From: a virus | Virus record (IMG/VR): IMGVR_UViG_3300031669_000105 | Coordinates: 1-37,480 of that record | DNA length: 37,480 nucleotides | Direction: 5' to 3' (one strand) | Shown: in pieces, positions 3,202 through 9,679 of the stretch | Layout of the letters: each line of letters starts with the position of its first letter | Position numbering within the stretch: the stretch's first letter is position 1 | Made by a program: the position numbers and the translations under genes | Notes under the pieces: generated by a model | Told to the model about the DNA's origin: nothing | Databases searched by the model: none | The model's input: only the letters and a program-made list of their open reading frames with translations

Positions 3202-3486
3202 TCATTCCTTGCGCTCCCTTGCAGCGTTGAAGATTACTTTTGCAATATCCGCACCTTGCATTAGTTTTCGCATCATGTATGGAAGTTCAACCCACCACTC
3301 ATGGAACGATCCCCACTTGTACTCCGGCTTGCTGTCTGGCCGGGTGTTCCACTCGCTTTCTCTGATCTCAACATCATAAATAGGGCACTTTGGATTCTTA
3401 CACCACACCCAGGTATCCCCAGCGTGGGCAGATGGCCGAATGTCTGATTCTCCACAAAACGGGCATGGTACAGGTTCTTCATTCAT
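3202..3486 (-). CDS. Lar-family-like restriction alleviation protein
   Basis: The 94-residue product begins MNEEPVPCPFCGESDIRP and continues with a second Cys pair (WCKNPKCP) and an EWNTRPD motif. Lar-family proteins have this CPFCG, second Cys pair and W-N-x-R order. Family members are small zinc proteins; Lar of the Rac prophage modulates type I restriction-modification so that phage DNA is protected. The longer frame starting at 3540 lacks the conserved N-terminus, so I use ATG 3486, which overlaps the upstream stop as ATGA. It is the promoter-distal gene of the leftward operon. Confidence 0.72.
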   Translation of the reverse strand: MNEEPVPCPFCGESDIRPSAHAGDTWVWCKNPKCPIYDVEIRESEWNTRPDSKPEYKWGSFHEWWVELPYMMRKLMQGADIAKVIFNAARERKE

Positions 3487-3812
3487 TGTTGTTCTCCTGG
3501 GGTGGTATCTTTTTTCCAGCCACAACCAGAGACAACGCAAAATAACCCGAACTTGTCTCTGGCAACCATCCCGCCATTTTCACACTTTGGGCATTCGGTG
3601 TCTGACCACTCTGCTGGTTCTCGTTCTTCATTCTCTTCGGGGCAAGTTGTCTCCGCTGGCTTGCTCTCTCCATGCCATACGGGGAGAGGACACCACTCGG
3701 GGATAGATAGCTCTGTCGTATCTTGCTTCATAAGTGCGCACCTAACCTGATTACCGACAAAATATCTGTCTGGGCAATCTCCGCAATGTTTAATCTCAAC
3801 AACCTTGCTCAT
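3483..3812 (-). CDS. Cys-rich zinc-binding hypothetical protein
   Basis: This 109-residue protein has two Cys-rich parts: CGDCPDRYF at the N-terminus with two later Cys (about residues 10-41), and CPKCENGGM with CVVSGCGW near residues 74-96. The second resembles a rubredoxin- or TFIIS-like zinc ribbon. A strong AAGGAGG lies 5-10 bases before ATG 3812. It is coupled to the Lar-like gene by ATGA. It may bind nucleic acid; no family assigned. Confidence 0.65.
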   Translation of the reverse strand: MSKVVEIKHCGDCPDRYFVGNQVRCALMKQDTTELSIPEWCPLPVWHGESKPAETTCPEENEEREPAEWSDTECPKCENGGMVARDKFGLFCVVSGCGWKKDTTPGEQQ

Positions 3813-3907
3813 CCTTCACCTCCTTACCTGGATTGTTCGCGTGGTTTCTTTCATGGCTTCACCTACCCCCTGTTAAAATCTCGCCATATAATAGTAAATA
3901 TTTATCG

Positions 3908-3930
3908 TTATATAGCTCGGTGCTATATAA
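3908..3930. repeat. AT-rich perfect inverted repeat next to cassette array
   Basis: TTATATAGC (3908-3916) and GCTATATAA (3922-3930) form a 9-bp perfect palindrome around a 5-base spacer. A second smaller palindrome (CTATAT/ATATAG on the complementary strand) overlaps it. It lies in the 126-bp gap between the gene starting at 3812 and the cassette array, 8 bases from the array boundary at 3938. It could be an operator, a hairpin that stabilises the mRNA end, or a feature that helped cassette insertion. No gene is seen in 3813-3938 apart from a 12-codon reading frame. Confidence 0.6.
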
Positions 3931-3938
3931 TAATATAG

Positions 3939-4178
3939 TTAGTTTGCTCCATCATAATCGGCCATTGCCTTTAATGCCCTTTCGCAATCGGTGCTTCCGT
4001 TTACATACTCGTCTGTTTCGTATTCGTCGTATCTTGGTTTTTGCAATCTCCGTAAAAATGGCGCAACGGTATTAACAAAATCTTGCAAACTAACAAGTCG
4101 TTCAACGTCTGACTTGCTTAACTTTGCAGGTTTTTCTACCTTTTTTATCACATCCAATGCAGCTGTAAGTTTGCTCAT
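3939..4178 (-). CDS. Cassette 1 gene: small charged hypothetical protein (79 aa)
   Basis: ATG 4178 is preceded by GGAGAG with good spacing; the upstream TTG (4190) is part of this ribosome site, so I use the ATG. The product is helical and charged with a basic N-terminal half and an acidic C-terminal end. The first 28 codons overlap the attC-like site at 4085-4220. The stop codon TAA is made by the cassette core (GCAAACTAAC on the coding strand), so the gene ends at the cassette border. No family recognised. Confidence 0.65.
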   Translation of the reverse strand: MSKLTAALDVIKKVEKPAKLSKSDVERLVSLQDFVNTVAPFLRRLQKPRYDEYETDEYVNGSTDCERALKAMADYDGAN

Positions 4179-4220
4179 TTTTCTCTCCAATACGCAAGCA
4201 GGTTAACTCAATCGTTATAT
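4085..4220 (+). other. attC-like recombination site 1 (about 136 bp)
   Basis: The outer ends are GCAAACTAAC (4085-4094) and GTTATAT (4214-4220). The inner arms are CTGACTTGC (4109-4117) and GCAAGCAG (4194-4201), which pair perfectly apart from one unpaired A at 4112. The right half (TTAACTCAATCGTTATAT) closely resembles that of the aadA1 cassette as I recall it. The length is like the long Vibrio cholerae repeats rather than the 60-bp type. The centre also encodes the start of the 3939-4178 gene on the other strand. Putative cleavage lies after G4214. Confidence 0.75.
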
Positions 4221-4424
4221 TTTCCGTAACTTCCCCATTAACTCAGAAAAGCCATCTCCCCTTATTTGTTTTATCGGCATTTGCAATCTTCCTACGGCCT
4301 CACGTATAAGCACCCTAAGATGTTCGCCTTCTTTAAGTTGCCTTTTAAGATCATCCCGCACACACTCAATGCAGTCCCCATACGGCAGGTCATGTTTTTC
4401 GCAGTTGTCACCATATCTACTCAT
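4215..4424 (-). CDS. Cassette 2 gene: small Cys-containing hypothetical protein (69 aa)
   Basis: ATG 4424 follows GGAGAT at good spacing. The product starts MSRYGDNCEKHDLPYGDC and has a CxxC-like arrangement (residues 8, 18 and 21), then a charged helix. Similar Cys/His N-termini occur in small phage proteins, but I cannot name a family. The TAA stop is formed by the cassette core (ATATAAC on the coding strand). The start lies only 11 bases from the attC-like site at 4435, giving the tight packing typical of cassettes. Confidence 0.65.
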   Translation of the reverse strand: MSRYGDNCEKHDLPYGDCIECVRDDLKRQLKEGEHLRVLIREAVGRLQMPIKQIRGDGFSELMGKLRKI

Positions 4425-4434
4425 AAATATCTCC

Positions 4435-4522
4435 AATATAACAAGGCATTCCAGCGGACCAGAATAACCTCGTCGGTATTAGTTTACAGCGGTTGCTTGC
4501 CGCTGAATTTAAACGTTAGCTG
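4435..4522 (+). other. attC-like recombination site 2 (88 bp)
   Basis: Outer ends: AATATAAC (4435-4442) and GTTAGCTG (4515-4522). Inner arms: CAGCGGAC (4452-4459) and GCCGCTG (4499-4505), pairing except for one unpaired A at 4458. This Gly-Ala-Cys-like GGAC pattern, with the extrahelical A in the left half, is the same as in the classical aadA1 attC read on its top strand. The middle is less structured. The site fills the gap between the start of the 4215-4424 gene and the end of the 4531-4758 gene. Putative cleavage lies after G4515. Confidence 0.85.
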
Positions 4523-4530
4523 GCCCAACG

Positions 4531-4758
4531 TCAAACCACATGAGGCAACAAAAAAGTCCCGGGGCTAAAATAGGGTGGCAATGGCTTATTATTATCTATA
4601 CGCCCAAATGGGTACGCCCTATAATCAGGGTCTAATTCGGCCACCCTTTTTTCCAACATATTCGCCCACTCTTTAATGCGGGTCATCTGCCATCCTTGGC
4701 TTAATCCCATGGACGCCCAAGCTCCGGCATACTCTTCCGTCAGAGTCTTATTGCACAT
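4531..4758 (-). CDS. Cassette 3 gene: hypothetical protein (75 aa)
   Basis: ATG 4758 is preceded by AAAGGAG. The product begins MCNKTLTEEYAG and has a helical first half, with a Pro- and aromatic-rich end (PLPPYFSPGTF). The stop at 4531 lies 8 bases from the attC-like site 4435-4522, and the start lies 33 bases from the next one, so the gene fills its cassette. I do not recognise the family. Its frame and ribosome site make a real gene likely. Confidence 0.65.
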   Translation of the reverse strand: MCNKTLTEEYAGAWASMGLSQGWQMTRIKEWANMLEKRVAELDPDYRAYPFGRIDNNKPLPPYFSPGTFLLPHVV

Positions 4759-4779
4759 TGTTAAACTCCTTTGTTGATT

Positions 4780-5082
4780 TTATCGGAAAACAGCTAACAA
4801 GAAAATCAACCTGACCGGGTTGAACCGTCCGATTTTTTCGGGCAGTTGGTTGCCCGGCAGGTTATTCAAGACGTTAGCCACAAAATAAAGCTGTTTCGTG
4901 TGCGCGTCCATTTTCACATACCCAACAATCGCGCTTTTCTTGTATGCGTCAAGCTCGGCCTCAACCACGGCCACGGCGTTCCGCTTAGTCTGATACCATG
5001 CGTGTGCCAGCATTGCGCCTGCGGTGAAGCAGAGGATTAGGATGGTTGCGATATAGCCTTGTTTCTCTTGTGCGGTTTTCAT
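4780..5082 (-). CDS. Small N-terminal-anchored membrane protein with attC-encoded C-terminus
   Basis: The 100-residue product has a membrane segment at about residues 10-28 (IATILILCFTAGAMLAHAW) followed by a charged helical region. From residue 71 on, the codons lie within the attC-like site 4791-4879, so the last 30 residues are translated recombination-site sequence. If the array 3939-4873 is removed, the frame continues from ...YFVAN into YIII and a TAG, giving a protein of about 74 residues. It overlaps the upstream gene by ATGA. Function unknown. Confidence 0.65.
   Translation of the reverse strand: MKTAQEKQGYIATILILCFTAGAMLAHAWYQTKRNAVAVVEAELDAYKKSAIVGYVKMDAHTKQLYFVANVLNNLPGNQLPEKIGRFNPVRLIFLLAVFR
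4791..4879 (+). other. attC-like recombination site 3 (89 bp)
   Basis: Outer ends: CAGCTAAC (4791-4798) and GTTAGCC (4873-4879). Inner arms: CCTGACCGGG (4810-4819) and CCCGGCAGG (4853-4861), which pair over nine bases with one unpaired A at 4814. This is the best-formed of the three sites. GTTAGCC at its right end is interpreted as the rest of the original insertion target. The site lies inside the 3' end of the gene 4780-5082 on the other strand. Confidence 0.87.
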
Positions 5083-5366
5083 GGTTTCAACGCCTCAATT
5101 TGCTCAGTGTCACCGAAAACAAGGGGCCGCTGTAGGGCAAGTGGAGTATCCGGGTCTTTCAACCTGGGGGCCACAAATTGTTTCATTTTGCACACTCCAT
5201 TTTCGTCCACTAGGCAATTCATTAACCGTTCCATGTCGGGCTGGTTGCACTGAGTGTAATTAAATTCGGTCTGGACCCAAGCGATAGGGCACGGATCGTA
5301 TGGCAGGCATTCATAGCATTGTTCGTCCAGCACCACACCAGATATACCGTTCGGAAAGTAAGCCAC
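5079..5366 (-). CDS. Hypothetical phage protein, Cys-rich (95 aa)
   Basis: The protein contains six Cys spread over residues 17-59 (CYECLPYDPC among them) and a Pro-rich C-terminal end. It has no signal peptide. It is coupled by ATGA to the small membrane protein downstream and begins three bases after the HNH gene upstream. Similar small Cys-rich proteins occur in early operons of other phages, but I cannot assign a function. Confidence 0.6.
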   Translation of the reverse strand: MAYFPNGISGVVLDEQCYECLPYDPCPIAWVQTEFNYTQCNQPDMERLMNCLVDENGVCKMKQFVAPRLKDPDTPLALQRPLVFGDTEQIEALKP

Positions 5367-7249: not shown

Positions 7250-7810
7250 ATGGAAAATGTTTGCATCCCAGAAGCCACGAGCGGTAATTGGCGCGTTGAA
7301 AAATTCACCACCGACAGAATGGACTTCAGATCACTTGCGAGTGGCAGAGGCGTCCCGATTGGCAAAACATATACGCGGCTGATGTGCGGAAGTACTTTGG
7401 TTATGTCCGACACCCCGGCAGAAATGCGGGACCATAGCTATGCTGTTCATAATGCCAAAGGGTCATGTTTAATAAATGGCCTAGGTATCGGAATGGTGCT
7501 TAAAAACATCCTATTGAAACCGTCCGTGACAGATGTAACAGTGGTGGAGCTATCGCAAGACGTTATTGATATGGTTGGGCCGCATTATTCTGACCCGCGT
7601 GTCACTATTGTGTGTGCCTCGGCCTTTGATTATGTGCCTCCAAAAGGTAAAAAATACGGGATGGTCTGGCATGATATCTGGAGCTATATCTGCGGAGACA
7701 ACATTGAAGAAATGAAAAAACTTCATCGTAAGTATGGCCGAAAAACAGAATGGCAAGGAAGTTGGTGCCGTGAAGAATGTGAAAGGGCCAACAGGCCAGG
7801 GAGGTGGTAA
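7250..7810 (+). CDS. Putative SAM-dependent methyltransferase-like protein
   Basis: The 186-residue protein has the order of a class I methyltransferase fold: SCLINGLGIGMVL (SAM-binding glycine loop, about residues 72-84), VTVVELS (acidic end of strand 2, about 95-101), VTIVCASAFDY (about 118-128) and YGMVWHDIW. The closest pattern I know is spermidine-synthase-like phage proteins. It is short and lacks an obvious DPPY or catalytic Cys, so DNA methylation is not supported. Substrate unknown. The WQGSWCREECER end recurs in such phage proteins from memory. Confidence 0.65.
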   Translation: MENVCIPEATSGNWRVEKFTTDRMDFRSLASGRGVPIGKTYTRLMCGSTLVMSDTPAEMRDHSYAVHNAKGSCLINGLGIGMVLKNILLKPSVTDVTVVELSQDVIDMVGPHYSDPRVTIVCASAFDYVPPKGKKYGMVWHDIWSYICGDNIEEMKKLHRKYGRKTEWQGSWCREECERANRPGRW

Positions 7811-7811
7811 G

Positions 7812-8075
7812 ATGCCAGCAATAAACCTTGAAAACAGCACCATGAGCGTAATCCCGGTATCTCGCCGGGGCATAATGATGAACGCGATTATCTGCTACAT
7901 GGATAAGGAACAGATATACAACGCCCTGCTTGAGATGCGGAAAGCCCTGACCTCGGCGGTGTGGGCGGAGATGATGATGCGAGTTTGCGCTGATTTGGAT
8001 TTGAATCAAGACCTTGTGAAAGAGGTTGATAGCCTTAAGGCTCACATAACTTTCTTGCAAGAGCGGCGTTACTAG
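7812..8075 (+). CDS. Hypothetical protein (87 aa) upstream of recombination genes
   Basis: GGAGGT sits 7-12 bases before ATG 7812, so I choose this start rather than the longer frame that overlaps the methyltransferase-like gene. The product is mostly helical (EQIYNALLEMRKALTSAVW and a C-terminal coiled region). Its place before the ERF gene suggests an accessory or regulatory role in recombination. No family recognised. Confidence 0.6.
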   Translation: MPAINLENSTMSVIPVSRRGIMMNAIICYMDKEQIYNALLEMRKALTSAVWAEMMMRVCADLDLNQDLVKEVDSLKAHITFLQERRY

Positions 8076-9539: not shown

Positions 9540-9563
9540 AATCACCTGAAATTTAAAGTTTGG

Positions 9564-9641
9564 AGCATGGTGGCGAAATTGGTAGACGCGGTGGCCCAAA
9601 GCCATGCCAAATGCGTGCAGGTTCAAATCCTGCCCATGCTC
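9564..9641 (+). tRNA. tRNA-Leu-like element with atypical anticodon arm
   Basis: The acceptor stem AGCATGG/CCATGCT (9564-9570 with 9634-9640) pairs 7 of 7. The D-arm GCG...CGC has the leucine-type loop AAATTGGTAGA. The T-arm GCAGG/CCTGC with loop TTCAAAT is perfect, and a short class II variable arm (ATGC/GCGT) is possible. The anticodon region is abnormal: GTGGC/GCCAT closes a 5-base loop CCAAA. Opening one pair gives a 7-base loop CCCAAAG with CAA as anticodon (Leu), but C instead of the invariant T at position 33 and only four stem pairs. It may be a decayed or altered tRNA. CCA is not encoded. Confidence 0.6.
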
Positions 9642-9679
9642 ATTTTTATCAAATATTGCTTTATAACTTGGAGGGTAAA

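Follow-up and report, generated by a model that had tools for sequence, protein, structure and literature searches.

A phage-borne attC cassette array whose genes run opposite to attC: a possible non-autonomous member of a phage-specific integron variant

Integrons are usually viewed as a bacterial device, with cassettes that read away from attI. Clusters of attC sites without intI have also been described in phages, among them TJE1, PH101, P12002L and MW202573, and three complete integrons have been reported from temperate phages (Qi et al. 2023, PMC9892861); in an E. coli assay, IntI1 recombined five of six tested phage sites with attI1. The cassettes of TJE1 and PH101 were described there as running in the same direction, as is typical of bacterial arrays; we found in that paper no remark on genes lying opposite to attC, and a phage-specific IntI clade is not reported in it. 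Phage attC clusters being known before, the elements of the present work that appear to be new are an inverted polarity of the cassette genes and a phage IntI clade: a search of open-access papers, preprints excluded, found no published account of either, a result we regard as provisional.

The sequence analysed here, termed the window, comprises all 37,480 bp of a virus record. An overlap of 131 bp (99%) between its two ends shows the genome, of about 37.3 kb, to be complete. It encodes a P22-like portal (nearest named record, 68%), terminase, Erf, exonuclease, RNA ligase, RusA, a helicase and a primase; no near-identical phage is present among GenBank records. A tRNA-Leu (CAA) gene lies at 9563-9642 (+), in the rightward early region. 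The array discussed below occupies the promoter-distal end of the leftward operon, near the junction with the rightward lysis genes, and is adjoined by a zinc-ribbon protein gene (3202-3489, -) whose resemblance to Lar restriction-alleviation proteins is weak, its match falling below threshold. Searches of the whole window genome with TIGR02249 and PF00589 gave no match to a tyrosine integrase, which, with the overlapping ends, upholds the view of the initial annotation that this is an integrase-less cassette array in a phage genome.

Sites of the attC type were called by exact geometry combined with a covariance model, R1, built from 18 attCs of intI-adjacent arrays in bacterial genomes and yielding rough E-values; an earlier generic stem search had proved too noisy. 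Scanning of both strands of the window, with filters off, gave three significant matches, all on the + strand and within 0.8 kb, at exactly the places where three attC sites in one orientation had been annotated and such a model search proposed: attC1 at 4088-4220 (21.1 bits, E 0.0057; R'' 4088-4094 AACTAAC, R' 4214-4220 GTTATAT), attC2 at 4436-4521 (45.6 bits, E 9.9e-9; R'' ATATAAC, R' 4515-4521 GTTAGCT) and attC3 at 4792-4879 (33.9 bits, E 5.5e-6; R'' AGCTAAC, R' 4873-4879 GTTAGCC). The next best match in the window reached 12.2 bits (E 0.69), and 979 kb from 82 related phage loci yielded no R1 match at E<=10; in 251 kb of bacterial arrays there were 146, many accepted long attCs there scoring only 20-25 bits. 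Rfam reported no attC in the window. Geometry is canonical at all three sites (R'', 5 nt, L''; then L', 6 nt, R'), with an extra C in L'' on the top strand at 4103, 4451 and 4807 and, just as annotated, an extra A at 4112, 4458 and 4814, which we take to be the second extrahelical base of standard attC anatomy.

The sites delimit three cassettes of + attC polarity. Cassette 1 (3939-4214) starts with GTTAGTTTGC, which complements the flank of its own R'' at 4085-4094 in 10/10 bases, while the starts of cassette 2 (4215-4515) and cassette 3 (4516-4873) complement 4435-4442 and 4791-4798, respectively, each in 8/8. The complementarity of 10, 8 and 8 bases noted at first sight is thus exact, and 7, 5 and 5 of these bases lie beyond the GTT/AAC core. 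Such self-complementary cassette ends are the footprint of circular intermediates. The same relation is seen elsewhere: beyond the core, cassette starts match their own R'' over a mean of 5.1 bases in phage arrays and 5.8 in bacterial arrays, against 2.0 and 1.7, respectively, for random R''. The hairpins are intergenic, and attC3 folds, as could be said of operon terminators or RNA processing signals with no part in recombination; we consider that reading very improbable, however, since the asymmetric attC scores of 34-46 bits are confined to one strand, the self-complementary cassette ends are in register, and attCs of the same layout from H101/PH101 recombined with attI1 in the assay of Qi et al. 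(2023, PMC9892861).

Each cassette holds one small open reading frame on the minus strand, with a Shine-Dalgarno (SD) sequence at its start: gene 1 (3939-4178, 79 aa), gene 2 (4215-4424, 69 aa; its SD directly follows the attC2 R'') and gene 3 (4531-4758, 75 aa). The stops of genes 1 and 2 are the boundary TTA read backwards, the TAA of gene 1 being that of the cassette boundary and the TAA of gene 2 lying inside the attC1 R' box; gene 3 stops 15 nt inside its cassette boundary. For all three the minus frame is the only one with coding-like codon usage (gene 1 scores 0.18 in its own frame and negative in the five others). The attCs point rightward and the genes leftward, so that 3/3 are antiparallel, not the typical bacterial arrangement; the first description had not mentioned this feature. 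A family search with gene 1 returned sub-threshold matches only, and genes 1-3 have no relatives by tblastn in viral contigs and none convincing in phage records. The pattern earlier named as telling against cassettes, no model match combined with relatives carrying the genes contiguously and lacking the sites, was absent: all sites matched, and no such relatives were found.

We think it likely that these are three genuine integron cassettes, placed promoter-distally in the leftward operon with their genes antiparallel to attC, and integrated by an integron integrase supplied in trans. Such an integrase, whether of the host, a prophage or a co-infecting phage, would join circular cassettes at G|TT; because the asymmetry of attC fixes the direction of a cassette, genes drawn from the pool would end up in line with the phage operon and share its transcription. 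In several arrays, and in cassettes 1 and 2 of the window, the boundary TTA supplies the gene stop. Where a relative encodes an intI of its own, the early operon is followed in order by cassettes, attI, intI and phage integrase; the window phage has lost, or never possessed, intI and int. We infer that a phage IntI in trans probably assembled the array, that its cassettes may remain mobile and that their genes would serve the phage.

Folding of the three sites, for which a check on the bottom strands had been proposed at the outset, agreed for one and not for the others: attC3 is predicted to form an attC hairpin, attC1 forms no clean one, and the predicted fold of attC2 differs from it, an internal part competing with the arm. 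attC1 is long, at 133 nt, and its variable part includes the start of gene 1. Because attC1 looks decayed and attC2 may misfold, the array may have lost its mobility. A fossil array, put together by an integrase in the distant past and retained today only for its genes, is compatible with the origin we prefer; it is favoured by the overlap of attC1 with gene 1, the poor folding of attC1, the competing part of attC2 and a genome without integrase, but R'' and R' cores and extrahelical bases are intact in attC1, attC2 and attC3, and we hold the fossil state to be possible but somewhat doubtful.

The left flank (3879-3938) ends at the insertion point 3938|3939, and its attI-like motif score stands at the 73rd percentile, a value that does not clearly mark it as an attI. 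On the promoter side the first phage gene is gene 4 (4780-5082, -), whose reading frame now enters attC3. Joining the flanks at 3938/4874 gives a clean, in-frame junction that restores a gene 4 end, ...FVANYIII*, though this is weak evidence; the predicted uninserted join reads ...AATATAG|TTAGCCAC... Gene 4 has no tblastn relatives in viral contigs and none convincing in phage records. The searches suggested in the initial annotation, for relatives of the cassette genes and for an empty site, thus detected neither, and we found no close relative with another cassette set at the array position. These negative results count against the origin we prefer, as does the want of an integrase in the genome. 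Gene 5 (5079-5366, -) has viral-contig relatives only next to or within attC arrays, those of two other phages (L144 and L145). It shares the motif P.VFGDTEQI.ALK with an open reading frame at L145:4956-5258, the remainder of the two differing.

Exchange of cassettes is apparent in other phages. L203 and L205 (the latter the same phage as L246) have a common backbone, at 89-94%, up to G|TT and unrelated cassettes thereafter, a difference that we read from the sequences as apparent natural cassette turnover; the same holds for L183 and L263, and L158 and L162 have one cassette in common (86-88%) in differing surroundings. Just before G|TT, the array starts of L183 and L263 have a palindrome-like stretch, GCGTTCAACGCCTGCTAATG, unlike the usual attI pattern. 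These comparisons bear on the proposal, made for some phage clusters by Qi et al. (2023, PMC9892861), that a segment of another array is captured by illegitimate or homologous recombination, with no integron integrase at work in the phage. The want of an integrase in the window genome would suit such a capture, but array starts conserved exactly to G|TT while cassettes are exchanged, and the clean, in-frame flank join, make it an unlikely origin of this array.

To place the polarity of the window genes, attC patterns were sought in viral contigs by an orientation-neutral scan, which gave at least 120 stretches, nearly all with arrays, and polarity was counted from gene calls anchored on SD sequences. 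The phage sets are metagenomic and partly redundant, and the figures hold among the matches listed; the bacterial control comprised 104 cassettes from one phylum group, 49 of them with clear polarity. Among the phage matches listed, 201 of 216 cassettes were reverse and 15 forward, whereas in bacterial intI arrays 3 of 49 were reverse and 46 forward; whole arrays in the phage contigs listed were all-reverse in 47 cases, including the window, and all-forward in two. Two looser counting methods gave an agreeing result. The genes flanking phage arrays encode portal, terminase, tape measure, tail, MuB and capsid proteins. Of 135 phage reverse genes among the matches listed, 56 had a stop lying exactly on the boundary and 120 were preceded by an SD sequence, a control frame giving 35 of 135 for the latter; in the pairs tested, dN/dS of reverse genes was up to 0.43, indicating purifying selection.

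Two trivial sources of the inverted polarity were considered and rejected. Antiparallel open reading frames are not spurious, given their SD sequences, dN/dS, codon usage and Pfam and PHROGs families; nor is attC direction misread, for phage attCs lie opposite to intI as they do in bacteria. One strand of a phage attC outscores the other by about 30 bits. Annotated genomes show the same arrangement: in Pseudoalteromonas phage H101 (PH101, NC_029094), the RefSeq genes at 75919-77987 occupy the minus strand, opposite attCs of plus orientation, and in MW202573 (2069-3738) the annotated genes are likewise antiparallel to attC; the cassettes of TJE1 are of forward polarity. Recombination activity among antiparallel arrays is known from the H101 (PH101) attCs only (Qi et al. 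2023, PMC9892861).

This polarity points to a phage cassette pool as the source of the window cassettes, because antiparallel genes are rare in bacterial integrons and the rule in phage contigs. The initial annotation had proposed that a host IntI inserted the cassettes, and on that account the phage would have received ordinary bacterial cassettes at a secondary G|TT site through a chromosomal integron integrase. The arms of attC2 are indeed nearly identical to those of an attC (L125:3374-3445) from an intI-bearing integron of Gammaproteobacteria, and the left flank is no more than weakly attI-like. Nevertheless, 3/3 antiparallel genes, the pattern of phage contigs, would be expected with a probability of about 2e-4 from the bacterial proportion of about 3/49 if cassettes were independent, and the array's size, short genes and boundary stops match those of phage arrays; insertion of ordinary bacterial cassettes by the host enzyme therefore seems to us improbable. 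As for what the pool contains, the 110 inverted phage cassette proteins assembled (set A3) include, by Pfam and PHROGs, many DNA methyltransferases, RNA ligases, DHH and PAPS-reductase-like proteins; because the known pool genes encode DNA methyltransferases, RNA ligase and PAPS-reductase-like proteins, the repertoire suggests counter-defence.

A scan of viral contigs with an IntI profile found at least 484 relatives, of which the best 80 were examined. Among these 80, attCs accompanied 50 of the IntIs, almost always on the strand opposite to intI, and cassettes were reverse in 57 of 62 cases and forward in five. The intI-attI-attC layout is the usual one, yet the early operon of the phage passes first through the cassettes and then through intI, in several contigs reaches a canonical phage integrase as well, and is followed by tail genes in convergent orientation. 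Among the matches listed, 55 of 64 viral IntIs form one clade, with support 99/95, that includes none of 29 bacterial IntIs. An example is the 29.8-kb contig L254 (IMGVR_UViG_3300042939_000785, G282), with capsid, tape measure, tail and helicase genes and a full-length IntI scoring 428 bits; its attCs are in the usual place, its genes run into intI, and the first three cassette genes checked end exactly on the boundary TTA. The L254 operon also has a C5 methyltransferase, and the contig shows a second, weaker tyrosine-recombinase match downstream. In L276 an integron integrase fragment (7669-7887, -) lies beside the start of an inverted array (at about 8039), and looks like part of a decaying phage integron; other contigs have short IntI-like matches.

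We are inclined to believe, with less assurance than we attach to the cassettes themselves, that phages have an integron class of their own, comprising a phage IntI lineage and inverted, operon-expressed cassettes that circulate between phages, integrase-less genomes included. Within the early operon, genes of this lineage would neighbour the phage integrase gene, and inverted polarity would let the phage operon, rather than an integron promoter, express the cassettes, often genes for DNA modification or repair; in a bacterial integron the same cassettes would be antisense to the cassette promoter, and silent. Judged from sequence, the window array looks like a non-autonomous member of this phage-specific variant. 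If so, phages would become a testable source of cassettes, whose origin has long been an open question; a site-specific route of exchange would be available to phage accessory genes, including those for counter-defence; and gene direction relative to attC would serve as a simple indicator of whether an environmental cassette is phage or bacterial in origin.

Set beside known systems, the window has three attCs, oriented cores, complementary cassette ends and no intI nearby, and is in these respects a CALIN; like the phage CALINs of Qi et al. (2023, PMC9892861) it is an attC array without intI in a phage genome, and, having no intI, it is not a complete integron of intI, attI and attC. Antiparallel genes inside a phage operon are found in the window and in 46 other all-reverse arrays among the matches listed. 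With sedentary chromosomal and class 1 type integrons the phage arrays share attC anatomy, joining at G|TT and intI-attI-attC geometry; they differ in that their genes run against attC and towards intI, instead of with attC and away from intI. In Treponema integrons (PMC3607928) it is intI that is turned, towards attI, whereas in phage arrays it is the genes that are reversed, intI and attC being arranged as usual. Lastly, the window genes resemble the morons of lambdoid leftward operons in being small early genes, distally placed in the operon and without assigned function, but each of them appears, from its sequence, to be a cassette of recombinable type with an attC of its own.
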